Source: Streptomyces sp. NBC_01314 (GTDB lineage: Bacteria; Actinomycetota; Actinomycetes; Streptomycetales; Streptomycetaceae). Taken from it: DNA of 64,000 nucleotides. The notes under the pieces are model-generated. The model searched no databases and was not told where the DNA came from. It saw only the letters and a list, made by a program, of their open reading frames with translations. A program made the position numbers and the translations under genes. Where the stretch lies: assembly GCF_041435215.1 (NCBI RefSeq), contig NZ_CP108394.1, positions 7,378,001-7,442,000 on the forward strand. Reading direction: 5' to 3'. Numbering within the stretch: position 1 is the stretch's first letter; the number at the start of each line of letters is the position of its first letter. Positions 55,977 to 63,976 of this stretch are shown in pieces.

Positions 55977-56894
55977 CTAGGCGGCCACGGAGACGGCCTC
56001 CTGCCGTGCGGCCACGGACGTGTAGTGCGAGGCGTCCCCCTCGATCGAGTGGCTCTCCCTGCCCTCGATGCCCGCCGGCACGTCCCCGGCGACGGTCACC
56101 CGGTGCAGTCGGCGCGGCAGGCCGTCGTAGTTGTCGATGGCGTAGTGCTGGGTGACGCGGTTGTCGAAGACGACGAGCTGGTTCTCCGACCAGCGGTGGC
56201 GCAACACGTTCTCCGGCCGGGTCACGTACGACTGGAGCAGGTCGAGGAGCTTGCGGGACTCGCCGAGGGACAGGCCCACGATCCGCTGCGCGAACCCGCC
56301 GATGAACAGGCCGCGTTCACCGGTCAACGGGTGGACGCGGACGACCGGGTGGGCCGTGCGGTACTTGATCGAGGTGAACCGGGCGCGCTGCTCGGCCCGC
56401 TCCGCGTCGATCTCCTCGTCGGGTACCGCGTAGTCGTAGTCGTTGGTGTGCTCGGCCCACAGGCCGTCGGCCAGCCGCCGCAGCGGCTCGGGCAGGTCCC
56501 GGTAGGCCGCCGCCGAGTTCGCGATCAGGGTCTCGCCGCCGTAGGGCGGGATCGTGATGCTGCGCAGGGTGGTGGCCTGCGGCGGGTTGAGGACGAACGT
56601 GACATCGGTGTGCCAGTGGTTGGCGCGCCCCCGCTCGCTGTCCACGGGCAGGACGTTCGCGGCACCGTCCACGGCGGCCACCGTCGGGTGGGCGGTGGTG
56701 ATGTCGCCGAAGTGGCGGACGAAGGCCTGGTGGGTCTCGTCGTCGAGGTCCACGTCGTCGAAGACGAGCGCCTTGTGGACGTTGAGGGCCTCGCGCAGGG
56801 CCGCGACCGTCTCCTCGTCGAGGGGCTTGGAGATGTCGACGCCGGAGACACGGGCACCGATGTTGGCGGTGACCTTCTGGATGTCGAGGGACAT
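55977..56894 (-). CDS. TauD/TfdA-family alpha-ketoglutarate-dependent dioxygenase
   Basis: A 305-residue enzyme. The iron triad is HWHTDVTF (His, Asp) and the late His in [10 protein letters not shown], with the alpha-ketoglutarate-binding Arg in the same segment. TauD-type enzymes oxidise taurine and other sulfonates or alkyl sulfates to release sulfite or sulfate. It is last in the ssu locus, so it probably acts on an imported organosulfur compound. The ATG follows AAGGAAG. It follows the flavin monooxygenase by 77 bases containing three short direct repeats. Confidence 0.9.
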
Positions 56895-56971: not shown

Positions 56972-58318
56972 TCAGACGAGGGCGGGTGCGGACGCACTGA
57001 CGTGCTGGTTGGCGGGGCGCGGCAGGCCGTAGCGGTCCCGCAGGGTCCGGCGCGGCCCGTACTCGGTGCGGAGCAGACCGCGGGTGCGCAGTATCGGGAC
57101 GACGTGGTCGACGAAGGCGTCGAGGCCGGACGGCAGGACCGCGGGCATGATGTTGAAGCCGTCGGCGGCACCCCGCGTGAACCAGGTCTCGATCTTGTCG
57201 GCGACCTGCTCGGGCGTCCCGGCGAAGGTGAGGTGCCCGCGCCCGCCGCCCAGCCGACCGATCAGCTCCCGCACGGTGAGCCGGTCGCGCCGGGCCAGCT
57301 CGACGACGAGCGTGTAGCGGCTCTTGGCGCCCTCGATCGTGCTCTCCGGCGGCAGACCGTCGGGCAGTGGGGCGTCCAACTCCAGGGTGCCCGGCTCCAG
57401 TTGCAGCAGCCGCTCCAGACCGCCCACCCCGTGCGTGTACACGATGTGGTCCTCCAGGACCCGCTCGGCCGCCCGCGCCTCGGCCTCCGTCGACCCCAGT
57501 ACGGGGACGATCCCGGGCAGCACCTTGATGTGCTCGGGGTCCCGGCCGACCGCCGCCGTACGAGACTTGAGGTCGGCGTAGAAGGCCTGCGCGTCCTCGA
57601 TGGTCTGCTGCGCGGTGAACACGGCCTCCGCGTACCGGGCCGCGAACGTCTTGCCGTCCTCGCTCGACCCCGCCTGCACGAGCAGCGGGTAACCCTGGGG
57701 CGAGCGGGGGACGTTGAGCGGACCCTCGACACTGAAGTACGTCCCCTTGTGCCGGGGCGGATGGATCTTCGTGTCGTCGCCCCAGACACCGGACGCCTTG
57801 TCGGCGACGATCGCGTCGTCCTCCCAGCTGTCCCAGAGCTTCAGGGCCACGTCGAGGAACTCGGAGGCCCGCGCGTACCGCTGGGCGTGCGCGGGCTCGG
57901 CGTCGAGACCGAAGTTCCGGGCGGCCTCCGCGCCGGCGGTGGTGACGATGTTCCAGCCGGCCCGGCCGCCGCTGAGGATGTCGAGCGAGGCGAACTTGCG
58001 GGCCAGGTTGTAGGGGGAGTTGTAGGACGTGGAGGCGGTGGCGATCAGACCGATGTGCTCGGTGGCCGTCGCCAGCGCGGTCAGCAGGGTGAGCGGTTCC
58101 AGGGCGCCCGCCGGACGCTGGCCCACGCTGCCCCACAGCTGCGGCCCGTCGGCCAGGAAGAGCGAGTCGAACGTGCCGCGCTCCGCGATCCGGGCCAGCC
58201 GCACATAGTGGTCCAGCTCGACGTGCGCGTACGGGTCGGACTCCGGCAGCCGCCACGACGCCTCGTGGTGGCCGGTGTTCATCAGGAAGGCGTTGAGATG
58301 GAGCTGTCTCGATGTCAC
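56972..58318 (-). CDS. LLM-class flavin-dependent monooxygenase (NtaA/SnaA/DszA type)
   Basis: A 448-residue FMN-dependent monooxygenase. LHLNAFLMNTGHHEASWR at the start, ASTSYNSPYNLARKFASLDILSGGRAGWNIVTT and LLVQAGSSEDGKTFAARYAEAVF are the hallmarks of the NtaA/DszA branch. These use reduced flavin from a separate reductase to cleave C-S or C-N bonds, for example in sulfones. In this operon it would free sulfur from an imported compound. No flavin reductase gene is in the operon. Start: GTG after GAGGA. Confidence 0.9.
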   Translation of the reverse strand: MTSRQLHLNAFLMNTGHHEASWRLPESDPYAHVELDHYVRLARIAERGTFDSLFLADGPQLWGSVGQRPAGALEPLTLLTALATATEHIGLIATASTSYNSPYNLARKFASLDILSGGRAGWNIVTTAGAEAARNFGLDAEPAHAQRYARASEFLDVALKLWDSWEDDAIVADKASGVWGDDTKIHPPRHKGTYFSVEGPLNVPRSPQGYPLLVQAGSSEDGKTFAARYAEAVFTAQQTIEDAQAFYADLKSRTAAVGRDPEHIKVLPGIVPVLGSTEAEARAAERVLEDHIVYTHGVGGLERLLQLEPGTLELDAPLPDGLPPESTIEGAKSRYTLVVELARRDRLTVRELIGRLGGGRGHLTFAGTPEQVADKIETWFTRGAADGFNIMPAVLPSGLDAFVDHVVPILRTRGLLRTEYGPRRTLRDRYGLPRPANQHVSASAPALV

Positions 58319-58428: not shown

Positions 58429-58656
58429 GGTGTGTCGGGGGTCATGGGCCGGTTCGGTGGGGCTTGTGGGCGGTGTGTCGGGGGTCATGGGCCGGTTCGG
58501 TGGGGCTTGTGGGTGGTGTGTCGGGGGTCATGGGCCGGCTCTGTTGGGTTTGTCGCTGGTTCGCCGGGGGGCATGGGCCGGTTCCGTGGGGCTTGTCGCT
58601 GGTTCGCCGGGGGCCATGGCGGACTCCGCGGCGCTCGTCGGTGGTTCACCGGAGGT
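58429..58656. repeat. 43-bp tandem repeat (about 5 copies) inside the ssu operon
   Basis: Five consecutive 43-bp units (starts 58429, 58472, 58515, 58558, 58601) plus a partial sixth share the core TCATGGGCCGG. The first two differ by one base; later ones diverge. The unit is not a multiple of three, so no protein is encoded through it. It fills the 337-base gap between the monooxygenase start and the ssuB stop. Confidence 0.9.
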
Positions 58657-59444
58657 CACCGGTGGTCCTCCGTCACGCCGAGTGCGGCCAGCAGTCGCTC
58701 GCGGTACTCGCCCAGCAGGGGGTCCCGGTACGAGCGCGGGTGCGGACGGTCGATGGTCAGGTCGAGGCCGATGCGGCCCTGTTCGAGCACCAGGACCCGG
58801 TCGGCGAGCACGATCGCCTCGTCGACGTCGTGGGTGACGAGCAGGACGGAGGGCTTGTGGTGCTCCCACAGCTGCCTGAGCAGGGTGTGCATCCTGATCC
58901 GGGTGAGCGCGTCCAGGGCGCCGAACGGCTCGTCGGCCAGCAGCAGTTCGGGATCGCGGACGAGGGAGCGGGCCAGTGCCGCGCGCTGGGCCTCGCCGCC
59001 GGACAGCTCGTTCGGCCAGGCGCGCTCGCGGCCCTTCAGACCCACCTCGGCGAGCGCCTCGCGGCCCCGGTCGGCGGCCTCCTTGCCCTCCGCGCCGAGC
59101 AGCACGTTGTCGAGGACGCGGCGCCAGGGCAGCAGCCGGGAGTCTTGGAAGACCACGGACACCCGGGCCGGCGCGGTGAGCCGGCCGCTGCCCACCACCT
59201 CGTGGTCGAGCCCGGCGACCGCCCGCAGCAGCGTGCTCTTGCCGGAGCCGCTGTGCCCGAGCAGGGCCACGAACTGCCCGGCGGGGATGTCGAGGTCGAT
59301 GCCGTCGAGGACCTTGCGCCCGTCGAACGACCGTGTGAGTTCCCGGAGTTGCACGGTGGGCCGGGTGCCCGTGGCCGTGGCTGTCCCGGGCTCGGTGGCG
59401 GTCGGCCGCCCGGTGTTCGTCAGCTGCTCAGCGTGCGTCGCCAT
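58656..59444 (-). CDS. ssuB: Sulfonate ABC transporter ATPase
   Basis: A 262-residue ATPase of the nitrate/sulfonate/taurine family. Walker A GHSGSGKST, Q-loop VVFQDSRLLPWRRVLDNV, signature LSGGEAQRAALARSLV, Walker B LLLADEPFGALD and the His switch LLVTHDVDEA are all present. SRLLPW is characteristic of SsuB/TauB. Its ATG follows GGAGGG and lies 25 bases inside the end of the permease gene. The last codons run into the tandem repeat. Confidence 0.92.
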   Translation of the reverse strand: MATHAEQLTNTGRPTATEPGTATATGTRPTVQLRELTRSFDGRKVLDGIDLDIPAGQFVALLGHSGSGKSTLLRAVAGLDHEVVGSGRLTAPARVSVVFQDSRLLPWRRVLDNVLLGAEGKEAADRGREALAEVGLKGRERAWPNELSGGEAQRAALARSLVRDPELLLADEPFGALDALTRIRMHTLLRQLWEHHKPSVLLVTHDVDEAIVLADRVLVLEQGRIGLDLTIDRPHPRSYRDPLLGEYRERLLAALGVTEDHR

Positions 59445-60301
59445 GACAGCACCCTCCGTTCGATGAGACGGACCGCGCTGTCGGAGATCAGGCCGAAGAT
59501 CCCGTAGACGACCAGGCCGACGAGGATGACGTCGCTCTGGCCGTAGTTCTGGGCCTGGAACATCATGTAGCCGAGTCCGTTGGTGGCGTTGATCTGCTCC
59601 AGCACGACCAGGCCCAGCCAGGAGCCGGTGACCCCGAGCCGCAGGCCCACGAAGAAGCCGGGCAGCGCGCCGGGGATGACGATCTGCCGGACGAACTGGA
59701 GCCTCGACAGGCCCTGGACCTCGGCGAGTTCGACGAAGCGGCTGTCGATCCCGGCCAGCGCGGCATGTGTGTTGAGGTAGATCGGGATGTAGACGACGAT
59801 GGCGATGATCGCGATCTTGAAGGTCTCGCCGATGCCCAGCCAGAGGATGAACAGCGGGATCAGACCCAGCGTCGGGATCGCCCGGTTGAGCTGCACGGTC
59901 CCGTCGATCAGTGCCTCGCCGACCCGGCTGAGCCCGGCGGCCAGGGCGAGCGCGACACCGGCCGTCAGCCCGATCACGAATCCGGATCCGGCCCGCTGCA
60001 ACGAGGTCGTGATGTCCGTCGTCAGCGTCCCGTCGGTCCACAGACGGACGCCTGTCTCCAGCACCGTCCAGGGCGCCGGGATCGCCGCCGGATCGAGCTG
60101 CCCGGCGGCGGAGGCGGCGGCCCAGAGGGCGAGGAACAGCAGCGGTCCGACGAGCCGGGAGGCGGGCAGCCGCTTACCGGGGGAGAGGCGCCGGCGCCTG
60201 CGGACCTGGGAGGTCTCCTCGACGGCCTCGACCGTACCGAGGGCGGCCGTGCCGACGACGGTCGTGCCGACCGGGGCGGCACTCGTGGTCGCGGCGCTCA
60301 C
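59420..60301 (-). CDS. ssuC: Sulfonate ABC transporter permease
   Basis: A 293-residue membrane protein. A disordered, basic N-terminus of about 45 residues precedes six helices. The EAA loop is ELAEVQGLSRLQFVRQIVIPGALPGFFVGLRLG, and LNRAIPTLGLIPLFILWLGIGE is the family motif. GTG at 60301 overlaps the ssuA stop (GTGA), so the genes are coupled. Confidence 0.92.
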   Translation of the reverse strand: MSAATTSAAPVGTTVVGTAALGTVEAVEETSQVRRRRRLSPGKRLPASRLVGPLLFLALWAAASAAGQLDPAAIPAPWTVLETGVRLWTDGTLTTDITTSLQRAGSGFVIGLTAGVALALAAGLSRVGEALIDGTVQLNRAIPTLGLIPLFILWLGIGETFKIAIIAIVVYIPIYLNTHAALAGIDSRFVELAEVQGLSRLQFVRQIVIPGALPGFFVGLRLGVTGSWLGLVVLEQINATNGLGYMMFQAQNYGQSDVILVGLVVYGIFGLISDSAVRLIERRVLSWRRTLSS

Positions 60302-61362
60302 TTCCGGTACTCCGCGGGCACGGCCTTCGCCGCGATCCCCTCGAACCGCCGGTCGAAGAGCGAGTCGACGTCGAACTTCTTCACGAAGCCGCCCTCCGCC
60401 AGCAGATCCGCGGTCTCCTGCTCCCACTTGATCGACTCGTCCCAGCTCGGCGGGAAGAGCGGCTTGTTGGCGAGTTCGCTGATCGACTCCGCCTGGGCGA
60501 GGTTCAGGTTCTGGGTCTTCACGTAGAACTCCTCGTTCCAGATGTCCGGGTTCTCGTACTGCCAGACCGCGCCCTTCGCCCAGTACGGGATGTACGCGGC
60601 GACGGCGGCCACCTTCTCGGAGTCGCCCAGCACGGAGGCCGGCGCCCACAGCAGGTTGAGCAGGTCCACCACGTCGGTGGGGATCGTGCGGGCGCCCTTG
60701 GCCCTGTACTGCTGCAGATAGGCGGGCGCCTGCTGGTTGGCGAGCGGAGCGACGTCCACCTGGCCCGACTGCAGGGCCGTCAGGAACTGGTTGCTGGTCA
60801 GCGGGACCAGCTCCGCGTCGTCGTAGGCGAGCCCCGCCTCCTTCAACGCCCGCAGCAGTACGACGCCCTGCGCCTGCCCCTGCGAGAAGGCGAGCTTCTT
60901 GCCCCGGAAATCCTTGACCGAGGTGAGGTCGCTGCCGGGCTTGGTGGCGAAGAGATAGTTCGGCTTCCGGGTGACGTCGATCGCGACGATCTTCGCGTCG
61001 TACCCCTGGTAATGCGCCTGGATCGGCGGAATTCCCGCGTTGTTGGCGACATCCAGCGAACCCGCGCGGAAGGCGTTGATGACATCGGGGCCCGCGCCGA
61101 TGTTCGCCCAACTGCTCACCCTGAAAGGCAGATCGTCGAGTTTCGCGAGCTTGAGCTGCAACTCCTGCTGGTTCTGGAAGGAGGCGATCTTCAGGCTCGT
61201 ACCCGCGGGAACCTTGGTGGGCAGCGGCGCGTCCGCGGCTGTCCGGGCGACCGCCGCGCTGCTGTCGGCGCAGCCGCTGAGCCCGGCCGCCGCGGCCGTG
61301 ACGCCGAGGAGGGAGGTGAGGAAGAGCCGCCGGTCGAAACCGGGCGCGGCGGAAGAAGACAT
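60298..61362 (-). CDS. ssuA: Sulfonate-binding lipoprotein
   Basis: A 354-residue substrate-binding protein. The N-terminus FDRRLFLTSLLGVTAAAAGLSGC combines a Tat motif with a lipobox (Cys31), so it is probably a Tat-exported lipoprotein. ITSFQNQ-like KIASFQNQQELQLKLAKLDD, AFRAGSLDVANN and KDFRGKKLAFSQGQAQG match SsuA/TauA-type proteins. It captures aliphatic sulfonates for SsuBC. It is the first structural gene after the leader peptide at 61579-61614. The 5' leader between them carries CGCACGGAAA-type imperfect 12-bp repeats (61417-61462). Confidence 0.9.
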   Translation of the reverse strand: MSSSAAPGFDRRLFLTSLLGVTAAAAGLSGCADSSAAVARTAADAPLPTKVPAGTSLKIASFQNQQELQLKLAKLDDLPFRVSSWANIGAGPDVINAFRAGSLDVANNAGIPPIQAHYQGYDAKIVAIDVTRKPNYLFATKPGSDLTSVKDFRGKKLAFSQGQAQGVVLLRALKEAGLAYDDAELVPLTSNQFLTALQSGQVDVAPLANQQAPAYLQQYRAKGARTIPTDVVDLLNLLWAPASVLGDSEKVAAVAAYIPYWAKGAVWQYENPDIWNEEFYVKTQNLNLAQAESISELANKPLFPPSWDESIKWEQETADLLAEGGFVKKFDVDSLFDRRFEGIAAKAVPAEYRK

Positions 61363-61543
61363 GGGAGGACCCCCAGGGGGACGGTGGGAAGGCGAACGGA
61401 ATCGCGAACGGCCTCACGCACGGAAAGACGCACGGAAACACACACGGAAAAACGCACGACATCGCGAACGGAAGGAATCCGCGGAAGCGGACGGAAAGGA
61501 AGCTGCGGAAGGAGGATTCACGCAGGAGGAAGTGCCGCGTCGG

Positions 61544-61566
61544 CCGGAGTGCGAGGGGCACTCCGG
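61544..61566 (-). promoter_or_regulatory. Candidate attenuator hairpin upstream of ssuA
   Basis: On the RNA sense, CCGGAGTGC CCCTC GCACTCCGG is a perfect 9-bp stem with a 5-base loop. It begins 12 bases after the stop of the cysteine-rich leader ORF, as expected for an attenuator or anti-terminator element. No U-tract follows. Confidence 0.5.
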
Positions 61567-61578
61567 TACGTCAACGTG

Positions 61579-61614
61579 TCAGCAACAGAGGGTGCGACAG
61601 CTCGTGAGCAGCAT
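61579..61614 (-). CDS. Cysteine-rich leader peptide of the ssu operon
   Basis: An 11-residue ORF, MLLTSCRTLCC, with three cysteines, two of them before the stop codon. Its ATG lies seven bases after the -10-like hexamer, so the transcript probably begins at the ATG (leaderless) and needs no ribosome-binding site. Ribosome stalling at the cysteine codons when cysteine is scarce could control the downstream hairpin and ssuA. It is too short to be found by normal gene callers. The evidence is positional and compositional. Confidence 0.55.
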   Translation of the reverse strand: MLLTSCRTLCC

Positions 61615-61621
61615 GAATACG

Positions 61622-61651
61622 ATGTTCCCGGTCTTCGGTATCGCCTGTCAA
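61622..61651 (-). promoter_or_regulatory. Promoter of the ssu operon leader
   Basis: On the minus strand TTGACA (61651-61646), an 18-base spacer and GAACAT (61627-61622) form a promoter whose predicted start falls on the leader-peptide ATG. The -35 is a perfect consensus. It begins 17 bases after the ROK stop. Confidence 0.6.
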
Positions 61652-61668
61652 CATTCGGAGTTTCTGAA

Positions 61669-62928
61669 TTAACCGACCTCGGCGCAGGCGCGGTCGAGAC
61701 GTGCCACGGCCCCCAGCGGGTCCCGGTAGAGCACGTCCAGAGCCACCGCTCCGCCCGCCGTGGCCAGCACGGAGTCAGGGAAGCTCGTCGGCCCCACGGC
61801 CGCCGCCCGGTCCGGCCCTACGGTCTCGTGCAGCGCGGCGAGGCAGTCCGCCCGGCCCATGATCCCGATCTCGGTGACGACCACGGTCTCCGGGTTCAGC
61901 ACGTCGAGCAGCAGCTCCGCCGCCCGCCCCACCATCCGCGCCCGCTCCACCAGCAGCCGCACGGCCACCGCGTCGCCGCCCGCCGCCGCGTCCACCACCC
62001 GCATCGGGTTCACCCCGTCGACGACCCCGGCCGCCCGAGCCCGCCGGCACAGTGTCCGCTCGCTCAACTCGGCCTGGAGGCAGCCGACCCGACCGCAGTC
62101 GCAGGGCTCCGTACCGCCGGGCAGCGGCAGATGGGCGATCGATCCCGCCTGCGAGCGGGGTCCGTGATGCACCTCGTCGTTGGTCGCGAACGCCGCGTCG
62201 ACCATATTGCCGACGAACAGATGCAGCACACTCCTGCTGCCACGGGCCCGCCCGAACAGCTGCTCGGCGCCCACCAAGGCCCGCGCGTGCCCGTCCACAT
62301 GGACCGGCAGCCCGGTCCCGGCACCGAGCATCTCCCGCACCGGCACCTCGCGCCAGCCCAGCAGCGGATGCTCGACGACGGTCCCGGTCTCCCGGTCCAC
62401 CCAGCCGCCGGCCGCGAAGCCGACGGCCAGGGCCCGGCAGCCCGGCGCCGCGTCCAGCAGGGCCCGGAGTTCGTCGGCGGCCCGCGCCAGGACCGGGGCG
62501 GGGCCGGTGGAGCCGTGCTTCAACCGCCGCTCCACGACGACCCGTCCCCGCAGATCGAGCAGCGCGACCGTCGTGTACGGGACGGCCACATGCACGCCGC
62601 CCACGACGAACCGCGAGTCGTCCAGGTCGAGGGGCACGTGCGGGCGCCCCGCCCCCTTGGCCCGCCGGGGCGGCTCGGCCTCACGGATGAGACCGAGCCC
62701 CGCGAACCGGGCGCAGTAGTCGGTCACCGAGGCCGGCGACAGCCCGGTCACCCGGGCGATGATGCTGCGCGCCACGGGCCCGTGCTCCAGCACGGACCGC
62801 AGCACCACGCTGGCGCTGGTCCGCCGCCGGTCGCTGTCGGCGACACGCGGTACGGGAGAAAGGGCAGGGCTGGGAGAGGAAGGAGAGGCGGGAGCGTAAA
62901 GGGTGGGTGCCGCCGCGGCATGGGGCAT
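61669..62928 (-). CDS. ROK-family regulator or kinase of the sulfur-acquisition locus
   Basis: A 419-residue protein. A winged helix at residues about 40-100 (VLEHGPVARSIIARVTGLSPASVTDYCARFAGLGLI) precedes the ROK domain with the zinc motif CDCGRVGCLQ and GSIAHLPLPGG. It is therefore likely a DNA-binding regulator rather than a sugar kinase. It lies upstream of ssuA in the same direction and may control the operon. The ATG at 62928 follows GAGG; a GTG at 63000 overlapping the leader-peptide stop is possible and would give translational coupling. The first 30 residues after the ATG are Ala/Pro/Ser-rich. Confidence 0.8.
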   Translation of the reverse strand: MPHAAAAPTLYAPASPSSPSPALSPVPRVADSDRRRTSASVVLRSVLEHGPVARSIIARVTGLSPASVTDYCARFAGLGLIREAEPPRRAKGAGRPHVPLDLDDSRFVVGGVHVAVPYTTVALLDLRGRVVVERRLKHGSTGPAPVLARAADELRALLDAAPGCRALAVGFAAGGWVDRETGTVVEHPLLGWREVPVREMLGAGTGLPVHVDGHARALVGAEQLFGRARGSRSVLHLFVGNMVDAAFATNDEVHHGPRSQAGSIAHLPLPGGTEPCDCGRVGCLQAELSERTLCRRARAAGVVDGVNPMRVVDAAAGGDAVAVRLLVERARMVGRAAELLLDVLNPETVVVTEIGIMGRADCLAALHETVGPDRAAAVGPTSFPDSVLATAGGAVALDVLYRDPLGAVARLDRACAEVG

Positions 62929-62996
62929 GGTGATCATCCTCGGGAACGGGTCCGACACTGCGCCGTCGCGATAGGGCGGGGCGTGCCGGAGCCGCC

Positions 62997-63083
62997 TCAC
63001 CCGGGACGGCGACAGGTGGCCGTGCCCACGCGTCGCAGATCGACGTAGCGACGCGACGAGAAGTACCGGGCTTGAGCAACCAT
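62997..63083 (-). CDS. Cysteine-type leader peptide upstream of the ROK gene
   Basis: A 28-residue ORF (MVAQARYFSS at the start; SRRYVDLRRVGTATCRRPG at the end). RRYVDLRRVGTATC matches the short leader-peptide family with a conserved R-x-VDL-x-R-...-C core that in actinobacteria precedes sulfur-metabolism genes. Its ATG is seven bases after a -10 hexamer, so translation is likely leaderless. A stalled ribosome at the Cys codon could link cysteine supply to expression of the ROK gene and possibly the ssu genes. The TGA overlaps a GTG start candidate for the ROK gene (GTGA). Confidence 0.72.
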   Translation of the reverse strand: MVAQARYFSSRRYVDLRRVGTATCRRPG

Positions 63084-63090
63084 GCGCCCG

Positions 63091-63119
63091 AAGCTAGCAA
63101 AACGGCCCACCGCTGCCCA
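63091..63119 (-). promoter_or_regulatory. Promoter of the ROK/leader-peptide transcript
   Basis: On the minus strand TGGGCA (63119-63114), a 17-base spacer and TAGCTT (63096-63091) form the promoter. The predicted transcript start coincides with the leader-peptide ATG at 63083, the same geometry as at the ssuA leader. Confidence 0.55.
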
Positions 63120-63391
63120 GACGGCGACCGACGGGCGAGACGGCACCTGTCCACGCCGCCGACCCGATTGGTGAAACCCTACAGATCTGATGCGGCGCCC
63201 CCTCAAGACGGAAGCACGCGCCACCTCAGTGACCGGTGTCACGCCCTACCGGGTGTAACCCGCATCCTTTGTGTGAAGCCCACCAAGCTGTCGTTCCCCC
63301 CTTTGTCGATCACTGACGGTGTGGGGTGCGAGGGGCTCGGGATAGCGTCACCGTGTCCCCGCCGACTTCACCCGCCGGAGTGAGCCCGATC
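63120..63391. promoter_or_regulatory. Intergenic region with a GTGAC-CGGT-GTCAC palindrome
   Basis: The gap between divergent leader-peptide and bioY transcripts holds the palindrome GTGAC CGGT GTCAC at 63229-63242. It may be an operator, but no regulator can be assigned. No further ORF with a start signal was seen. Confidence 0.35.
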
Positions 63392-63976
63392 ATGAGCACC
63401 ACCGCCGCCACGTCAGCCCGCCCCGGCGAGGTCCTCGCCGACCTTCTGCCCGTCGCCGGCGTCCGCGCCCGGGACATCGCGCTCGTGGTCGGCGGCGCCG
63501 CGCTCACCGGGCTCGCCGCCCAGATCGCCGTGCCCGTGCCGGGCTCCCCGGTCCCGGTCACCGGCCAGACCTTCGCCGCCCTGCTCGTCGGCACCACCCT
63601 CGGCGCGAGCCGCGGCGTCGCCTCCCTCGCCCTGTACGCGCTGGTCGGCCTGGCCGGCGTGCCGTGGTTCGCGAACGGAACCTCCGGCGTCGGCGTCTCC
63701 TTCGGCTACATCCTCGGCATGATCCTCGCCGCCGCCGCCGTGGGTGCCCTGGCCCGCCGCGGTGGCGACCGCTCCACTCCGCGCATGGCCGGCACGATGC
63801 TCGTCGGCGAAGCGATCATCTACGCCGTCGGCGTCCCGTACCTCGCCGCGACCGCCGACATCAGCCTCTCCACCGCCGTCGCGGTCGGCCTCACCCCGTT
63901 CCTGATCGGCGACGCCATCAAGGTCGTCCTGGCCATGGGTCTGCTGCCGACGGCCTGGAAGCTGCTCAAGAACTGA
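63392..63976 (+). CDS. bioY: Biotin transporter substrate-binding subunit BioY
   Basis: A 194-residue membrane protein with six predicted helices. PVPGSPVPVTGQTFAALLVGTTLGASRGVASLALYALVGLAGVPWFANGTSG is the BioY signature region. It imports biotin as the S component of an ECF transporter; energising subunits are not in the window and may lie downstream or be shared. ATG at 63392 follows GGAGTGAG and a longer frame adds only 22 atypical residues. Confidence 0.93.
   Translation: MSTTAATSARPGEVLADLLPVAGVRARDIALVVGGAALTGLAAQIAVPVPGSPVPVTGQTFAALLVGTTLGASRGVASLALYALVGLAGVPWFANGTSGVGVSFGYILGMILAAAAVGALARRGGDRSTPRMAGTMLVGEAIIYAVGVPYLAATADISLSTAVAVGLTPFLIGDAIKVVLAMGLLPTAWKLLKN

Follow-up and report, generated by a model that had tools for sequence, protein, structure and literature searches.

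What does a reading frame of only 12 codons, rich in cysteine and placed in front of a sulfonate import operon of Streptomyces sp. NBC_01314, contribute to the control of that operon? The locus was analyzed within a stretch of 64,000 nucleotides, referred to as the window, and its features are listed in Table 1. On the minus strand, the order is ROK gene, inverted repeat, promoter, leader, ssuA-like gene and genes for a permease, an ATPase, a monooxygenase and a dioxygenase. The leader is located directly upstream of a sulfur acquisition operon, in which the assignments of ssuA, ssuB and ssuC are best matches below the NCBIfam cut-offs, and a Shine-Dalgarno-like GGGGG precedes the ATG of the ssuA-like gene. 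The first-pass annotation had reported two promoter boxes, a short Cys-rich frame and a hairpin at this place, and rereading of the minus strand reproduced boxes, spacing, frame and hairpin base for base. TTGACA and GAACAT are separated by 18 nt, the frame reads ATG CTG CTC ACG AGC TGT CGC ACC CTC TGT TGC TGA (start codon at 61614-61612, stop codon at 61581-61579), and a perfect stem of 9 bp begins 12 nt past the stop. As a -10 box, GAACAT is imperfect, retaining A2 and T6 of TAnnnT, and a consensus promoter scan of the window called no promoter at TTGACA/GAACAT.

Table 1. Positions in the window of the ssu operon, its leader and the upstream regulatory features.
Feature	Position	Strand	Remarks
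TauD-family dioxygenase gene	55977..56876 (5' boundary approximate)	-	PF02668, 5.5e-63
NtaA/DmoA-family FMN-dependent monooxygenase gene	56972..58318	-	TIGR03860, 551 bits, above cut-off
ssuB-like ATPase gene	58656..59471 (5' boundary approximate)	-	best NCBIfam match aliphatic-sulfonate ABC ATPase, below cut-off
ssuC-like permease gene	59420..60325 (5' boundary approximate)	-	PF00528; best NCBIfam match SsuC, below cut-off
ssuA-like sulfonate-binding protein gene	60298..61362	-	PF09084; TIGR01728 96.9 bits, below cut-off 163.5
Pyrimidine-rich leader RNA, candidate Rho-loading stretch	61378..61536	-	70% C+T, C 37%, G 24%
GC-rich 9-bp hairpin, CCGGAGTGC-CCCTC-GCACTCCGG	61544..61566	-	no U-tract, lineage-specific
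Leader peptide ORF MLLTSCRTLCC	61579..61614	-	12 codons including stop, predicted leaderless
-10 box GAACAT	61622..61627	-	7 nt before ATG; S. lividans spacing data (PMC8079986)
-35 box TTGACA	61646..61651	-	sequence reading; kept in 64/64 Streptomycetaceae loci
Candidate operator, inverted repeat ATTCA-N7-CGAAT	61653..61669	-
ROK-family regulator gene	61669..62958 (start taken at GTG 62958)	-	PF00480; directly upstream, same strand
Second leader peptide MVAQARYFSSRRYVDLRRVGTATCRRPG, leaderless-type	62997..63083	-	before ROK gene; NF042934 23.7 bits, cut-off 27
-10 box TAGCTT	63091..63096	-	7 nt before second-leader ATG

A scan of named genomes for relatives of the binding protein yielded 65 loci, 63 of them from Streptomyces and one each from Actinacidiphila and Rhodococcus. 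Throughout the 64 Streptomycetaceae loci, a start codon (ATG in 62, GTG in two) is situated 31 nt (57 loci) or 30 nt (seven loci) past a -35 box conserved as TTGAC(A). This constant spacing between promoter and start codon is compatible with a leaderless start, and the first base of the transcript would probably be that of the AUG of the 11-residue frame. Consecutive Cys codons stand near the stop, the frame ending with CC-stop in 61 loci and with CR-stop in three. The first-pass annotation had made its reading depend on the presence of the frame in related genomes, and the frame was indeed kept in every one of these 64 loci. The -35 expression did not capture the Rhodococcus locus (L065), for which inspection by eye showed a GTG 30 nt after TTGACG that opens a peptide ending in ..FAFRCCCR-stop, in the same layout as in Streptomyces.

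At an unchanged start position, frame lengths range from 8 to 52 codons. Two classes can be told apart: the short one, with 8-13 codons, comprises 52 loci and the window, and the long one, with 27-52 codons, comprises 12 loci. Both share the place of the start as well as a similar ending, which is LTKCRVVDLMRVARTRCC in the long and SCRTLCC in the short form. We infer, without recourse to a tree, that the short class may be a reduced version of the long one. A form reading MSCRSFRTLCC is present in one genome (G032; L112), and L017, a relative in the S. violaceoruber group, has MSCRTLCC. Gene finders are likely to overlook the short form, judging by its length, and relatives of one long form in databases (14 proteins) are, where named, called 'hypothetical protein'. 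In six loci (L019, L033, L036, L039, L042 and L058), the bases around Cys-Cys-stop (TGTTGCTGACACGTTGCC) appear in the alignment to be locally duplicated just past the leader stop.

For the genus at large, a pattern was composed of GAATRTTGACA, 31 nt, ATG, 9-150 nt and TGYTGYTGA, with the reading frame not enforced. It is present in 67 of 295 genomes, the window's own included, while the reversed pattern used as control occurs in none. Among 60 genus genomes searched for the binding protein, 12 encode an ssuA at least 76% identical, and 11 of these carry the pattern, the sole exception being G013 (locus L111); it is absent from the other 48. The operator/-35 pattern of the window was found in eight of 22 genus genomes drawn and in none of 224 others of the class; the variant found in the distant loci (see below) falls outside this pattern. 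The pattern CR-N7-CC-stop was also tried as a genome-wide marker and rejected: with 10 places as compared to six in the reversed control, it is uninformative alone. Promoter, start position, frame, Cys codons and operon context are conserved, and the counts for loci and genomes support the earlier claim of a real, probably leaderless Cys-rich leader before a sulfonate import operon. We regard it as very probable that the frame in the window is a genuine, translated leader.

Five of the 48 genomes without the pattern contain an ssuA homologue with 54-57% identity (L119-L123). An initial inspection of these loci was too narrow, covering no more than the nearest 700 nt and a single -35 expression, and missed the leader; their classification as loci devoid of a leader was dropped since the layout was found further upstream in all five. 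There, TTAATTC-N9-CATTG-TTGACC is followed at 29-30 nt by ATG and a Cys-rich frame of 35-40 residues (e.g., MTSRQRNSGNVSQRAHSCRAAAPTSEYARRTCCRPCPGNR), and the ROK gene is 46-53% identical over the stretch compared. The leader precedes a flavin reductase gene (identified in L121), and ssuA follows; loci of this type make up a second group of ssu-type operons. These frames do not end with CC-stop, as four extend 2-7 residues past the Cys pair and that of L121 is devoid of the pair. The variant promoter of the distant type occurs in six of the 60 genus genomes (reversed control, 0), namely the five just mentioned and G044, in which it is located before the 18-residue MTLRQRNPRYVPCPCCRA (L135). 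Promoter type and Cys-rich frame were found together in 16 of 17 genomes having an ssuA relative at E <= 1e-90.

Codon usage was inspected for signs of translation. For nine of the 12 long forms, pN/pS was 0.64 over the whole frame; it was 0.81 for the N-terminal part and 0.49 for the C-terminal part, the bases of which gave 1.20 and 0.87 in the two shifted frames. The signal is modest because the frames are short. In the alignment, long forms hold the frame over 50 codons with whole-codon gaps. The three Cys codons of the 52 short forms outside the window are, in order, TGT (50/52), TGT (52/52) and TGC (48/52, the rest being two CGC and two TGT), and the leader Arg codon is CGC in all 52. For comparison, six invariant Arg codons of ssuA from the same loci have a mean codon diversity of 0.44, while one in four of the invariant ssuA codons matches the uniformity of the leader codons (diversity 0.05 or less). 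Thr and Leu codons of the short leaders do vary. TGT and TGC stand at 27:274 in the long GC3-rich ORFs of these loci, and two of the three Cys codons of the leader in the window are the rare TGT, the retention of which suggests that decoding speed or RNA shape is under selection. An initial expectation had been that the frame changes at synonymous sites only. This was not borne out, as the Cys and Arg codons are near-invariant even there, which implies that the RNA or the codon itself is constrained.

Near-invariant synonymous positions could also mean a selected DNA or RNA element. The conserved block would then be, e.g., a protein-binding site, and the Cys-rich frame would be incidental. The short forms agree with this alternative in the synonymous positions of TGT CGC ... 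TGT TGC TGA and in the bases past the stop, which are near-invariant as well. Nevertheless, it appears quite improbable in view of the long forms, with their sustained frame, whole-codon gaps and lower in-frame pN/pS, and in view of the different Cys-rich peptides that occupy the same place in Rhodococcus and in the distant ssu loci.

The ROK gene accompanies the leader with high constancy; identity of its best match ranges from 66 to 94% (66-94%) over 63 loci of the Streptomycetaceae, with a partial match in L055, and amounts to 49% in the Rhodococcus locus. The candidate operator starts inside the ROK stop codon, and a single nucleotide separates its end from the -35 box. Of the 65 aligned loci (the window and L001-L064), 64 have ATTC-N9-GAAT without deviation. 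The exception is L040 (site at L040 2500-3000), the only one among L001-L065 without a ROK gene in the stretch examined. In L111 (1080-1500), which was found independently, neither a ROK gene within 1.5 kb nor the repeat is present, and inspection by eye revealed that the -35 box and the leader start codon are gone as well. In two loci, the repeat has thus been lost or degraded along with the regulator gene. Among 65 loci with a close ROK gene, 64 carry the repeat in its exact form, as compared to neither of the two that have no such gene (L040, L111). Rhodococcus has a ROK gene and ATTC-N9-CAAT; the CAAT variant recurs in G503 (L131) with a ROK gene of 79% identity and the leader MSLFVSCRTLCC, and the distant loci L119-L123, whose ROK gene is diverged, retain TTAATTC as the left half but have CATT in place of GAAT. 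L131 and L119-L123, which are outside the count of 64 of 65, therefore combine a ROK gene with the left half only. As written, the site is thus one of the close ROK type, and the drift of the right half elsewhere weakens the case for a strict inverted repeat.

The arrangement of ROK gene and ssuA on one strand also allows for a frame that is not translated at all, with ssuA transcription starting elsewhere, e.g., at the promoter of the ROK gene. L111 is in line with this, as it has lost the ROK gene together with the second promoter, and the leader of the ROK gene, with its own promoter, sits 362 nt before the ssuA match. On the other hand, the retention of the -35 box, the spacing and the start codon in all 64 Streptomycetaceae loci is hard to explain without a promoter at this place, and we consider a start elsewhere very unlikely.

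If the leader is translated, the next question is how its translation might act on ssuA. The hairpin past the stop had been proposed as the switch, which corresponds to classical attenuation with the 9-bp stem as intrinsic terminator and the position of the ribosome on the Cys codons deciding on its folding. The stem of the window folds stably for its composition (-23.7 kcal/mol, z -3.96), with one of 200 shuffles reaching its stability. A shorter GC stem occupies the same place in L006, L011, L013 and L016, and z values below -2 with other stems were obtained for L011, L016, L038, L057 and L062. However, the stem of 8-9 bp is limited to the window and L001-L005 (6/65 loci), and the mean z for the 42 nt after the stop is -0.46 over the 65 loci (18 below -1), not lower than the value of -0.52 for the 50 nt that follow; it is -0.74 for the end of the frame. 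The hairpin in the window has no U-tract and was not called as a terminator, and no upstream segment complementary to its 5' arm was seen by eye. A conserved terminator hairpin with a U-tract, as expected for a classical attenuator, was not found in these loci, and this candidate was discarded. With the stem in six of 65 loci and devoid of a U-tract, a hairpin terminator is not the common mechanism, and its role as the switch, as originally assigned to it, is unlikely.

No other RNA structure common to all loci was found. Folding the proximal part, and each of four clades by itself, to a consensus gave nothing that all of them share, the complementarities GCGTGAATTCC/GGAATTCCGC and AUGAGC/GCUCAU were seen by eye in some lineages only, and Rfam has no family above gathering score in the region (one chance match, E 9.5). 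Therefore, the link between stalling and ssuA lacks an anchor in an alternative RNA structure common to all loci. The Shine-Dalgarno region of ssuA (61362-61375, minus strand) is self-complementary, the form GGRG-N2-CYCC being present in 42 of 65 loci as a raw count; the one terminator-like call within the leader (shuffles, 0.5) is at this site.

What the leaders do share is base composition. The RNA after the leader ORF is C-rich and G-poor, as in Rho-dependent attenuators, with C exceeding G in all 59 of the 65 leaders that are long enough to measure, in 36 of them by 0.15 or more. In the window, the pyrimidine content of 70% over 159 nt is reached by 0.02% of the 170-nt segments on both strands of the 64 kb, while the excess of C over G is not rare (6.6% of such segments). 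The shared pyrimidine-rich leader favors Rho-dependent or translational attenuation, and we give the Rho route precedence over translation control and rank the hairpin last of the three.

Translational attenuation is a route within our preferred explanation. Here, the frame would control access to the ssuA Shine-Dalgarno sequence, in that stalling frees this sequence or coupling delivers ribosomes. Mycobacterial cases have been described as acting at the level of translation (PMC9031893, PMC13236596), and the placement of the Shine-Dalgarno sequence within the palindrome counts in the same direction. Several features fit less well: the distance from the stop of the upstream ORF to the start of the ssuA match varies from 86 to 423 nt, the folds of the clades contain no shared long-range pairing between upstream ORF and Shine-Dalgarno sequence, 23 of 65 loci have no palindrome, and in the distant loci a flavin reductase is the first gene past the leader (checked in L121). 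Control at this level is possible but, on balance, rather doubtful.

Taken together, we consider it probable from the comparative sequence evidence that the ssu operon is subject to cysteine-responsive leader-peptide attenuation by any route except the hairpin, an estimate that overlaps with the one for the translational route. The most likely reading is a cysteine-responsive leaderless attenuator under a ROK activator. The activator would bind the candidate ATTCA-N7-CGAAT site beside the -35 box and drive a transcript that begins with the AUG of the leader. A 70S ribosome would start on the bare AUG and reach CRTLCC near the end of the frame. With plentiful cysteinyl-tRNA it would pass and leave, the pyrimidine-rich RNA would be exposed, and transcription would stop before ssuA, most likely via Rho, or ssuA would be poorly translated. 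When cysteine is short, the ribosome would stall on the tandem Cys codons, where it would cover the stop along with the conserved bases next to it, with expression of the operon as the outcome. Against this reading count the shortness of the Cys run, with two codons in tandem, the off-consensus -10 box, the frames of the distant loci, none of which ends with CC-stop, and the missing right half of the repeat there in spite of a ROK gene; moreover, a single stalled ribosome would cover just the first bases past the stop.

The ROK gene is preceded by a leader of its own (Table 1). Upstream sequence is long enough to judge the presence of this second leader in 61 loci; 58 of them have it, and L040, L062 and L065 do not. 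L030, L032, L042 and L055, with shorter upstream sequence, are left out of the count. A -10 box of the TA type (TAnnn[TC]) precedes it in all 57 loci checked. Further upstream, a BioY-family (biotin transport) gene is oriented divergently (63326-63976, plus strand). A search of the genome with NF042934 gave eight places that exceed the cut-off and, at E <= 10, another 16 that do not, while 14 control genomes gave weak matches in 10 cases and none above the cut-off. Where the next gene was identified (L089 left out), matches above the cut-off precede genes for a PLP enzyme, cysteine dioxygenase, an ABC ATPase, nitrite/sulfite reductase, FMN reductase, a rhodanese, a flavin reductase and a luciferase-like monooxygenase, and matches below it precede genes for a periplasmic binding protein and an ABC permease. 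Several of the NF042934-type leaders collected as L081-L092 stand before sulfur genes (cysteine dioxygenase, nitrite/sulfite reductase, rhodanese). The ABC, flavin reductase and monooxygenase genes are presumably linked to sulfur as well, and the PLP enzyme, the flavin reductases and the monooxygenase are possible sulfur genes. Nine long ssuA leaders align with ten of the twelve NF042934-type peptides (L082 and L092 left out) at an hhalign probability of 74 and a pairwise E of 2.8e-5, and both groups share L..(K/R)xR..DL.R......C; the long leaders nevertheless fall short of both NCBIfam models, NF042933 and NF042934.

As a tentative extension, which we hold to be conceivable rather than probable, the sulfur regulon of Streptomyces might be run by distributed cysteine-sensing leaderless leaders. 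The sulfonate locus would sense at both tiers, i.e., at the ROK activator gene and at the operon, and the operon sensor would have been trimmed from some 50 codons down to eight in the shortest cases, the rare TGT codons being retained for sensing and Rho, instead of a hairpin, being the likely effector. Such a sensor would, if this is true, rank with the smallest ribosome-based metabolite sensors on record. The natural series of lengths from 8 to 52 codons and the two loci that have lost the regulator provide material for testing the minimal sensing unit.

Among known systems, the closest are found in mycobacteria, for which Canestrari (2020) is cited as describing polycysteine leaderless short ORFs. 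Such ORFs have been reported by Shell (2015; PMC4633059), cysteine-responsive leaderless ORFs have been reported for M. smegmatis (PMC9031893), and mycobacterial ORFs of this kind are treated also in PMC9094748 and PMC13236596. They resemble the Streptomyces leader in the leaderless-type start, in the clustering of Cys codons at the end, in their position before sulfur or cysteine genes and in their occurrence in an actinobacterium. In contrast, the short form in Streptomyces has only 8-13 codons with two tandem Cys codons and belongs to an ssu operon, a candidate ROK site adjoins its promoter, and its response to cysteine is predicted. Seliverstov et al. (2005) suggested Rho for mycobacterial cys leaders, and their candidates likewise combine runs of Cys codons near the stop with the absence of a conserved terminator hairpin; they precede cys operons of Mycobacterium and P. 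acnes and cbs of B. longum and not, as here, an ssu operon of Streptomyces (PMC1262725).

Family models capture the leader hardly or not at all. The NCBIfam scan has a limit of 20 residues, below which the 11-residue form falls. NF042933 (Ms5788A Cys-rich leader) matched the 27-residue form of L021 weakly (residues 7-27, 15.8 bits as compared to a cut-off of 45) and none of seven other peptides (six from Streptomycetaceae, two of these from internal starts, and that of Rhodococcus). NF042934 (cis_reg_atten), in spite of its eight matches above the cut-off in this genome, matched neither the eight peptides scanned nor 61579-61614 in the genome search; the ssuA leader, which ends with CC-stop, is itself no match. 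The main text of the S. lividans reannotation reports eight leader peptides, none of them named for cysteine or ssu, and contains no word beginning with 'ssu' (PMC8079986). Among the matches listed for the open-licence literature, none deals with a Cys leader in front of ssu in Streptomyces. A feature under 12 codons was thus recoverable by promoter-anchored comparison where protein models fail.

The candidate regulatory site has a possible counterpart in the CysR/SsuR system of C. glutamicum. CysR and SsuR are ROK-type regulators of sulfur genes, and CysR half-sites of the TGAAtnnAAt type (ATTCA/TGAAT-type halves) lie 6-8 bp apart and 3 bp upstream of -35 boxes, while the repeat described here ends 1 nt from the -35 box (PMC2580772). 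Cysteine-type leaderless leaders, known from mycobacteria, are hereby extended to ssu operons of Streptomyces, where they are unnamed in the family models and literature compared, and the ssu leader of Streptomyces is a new, hitherto unannotated member of this group.
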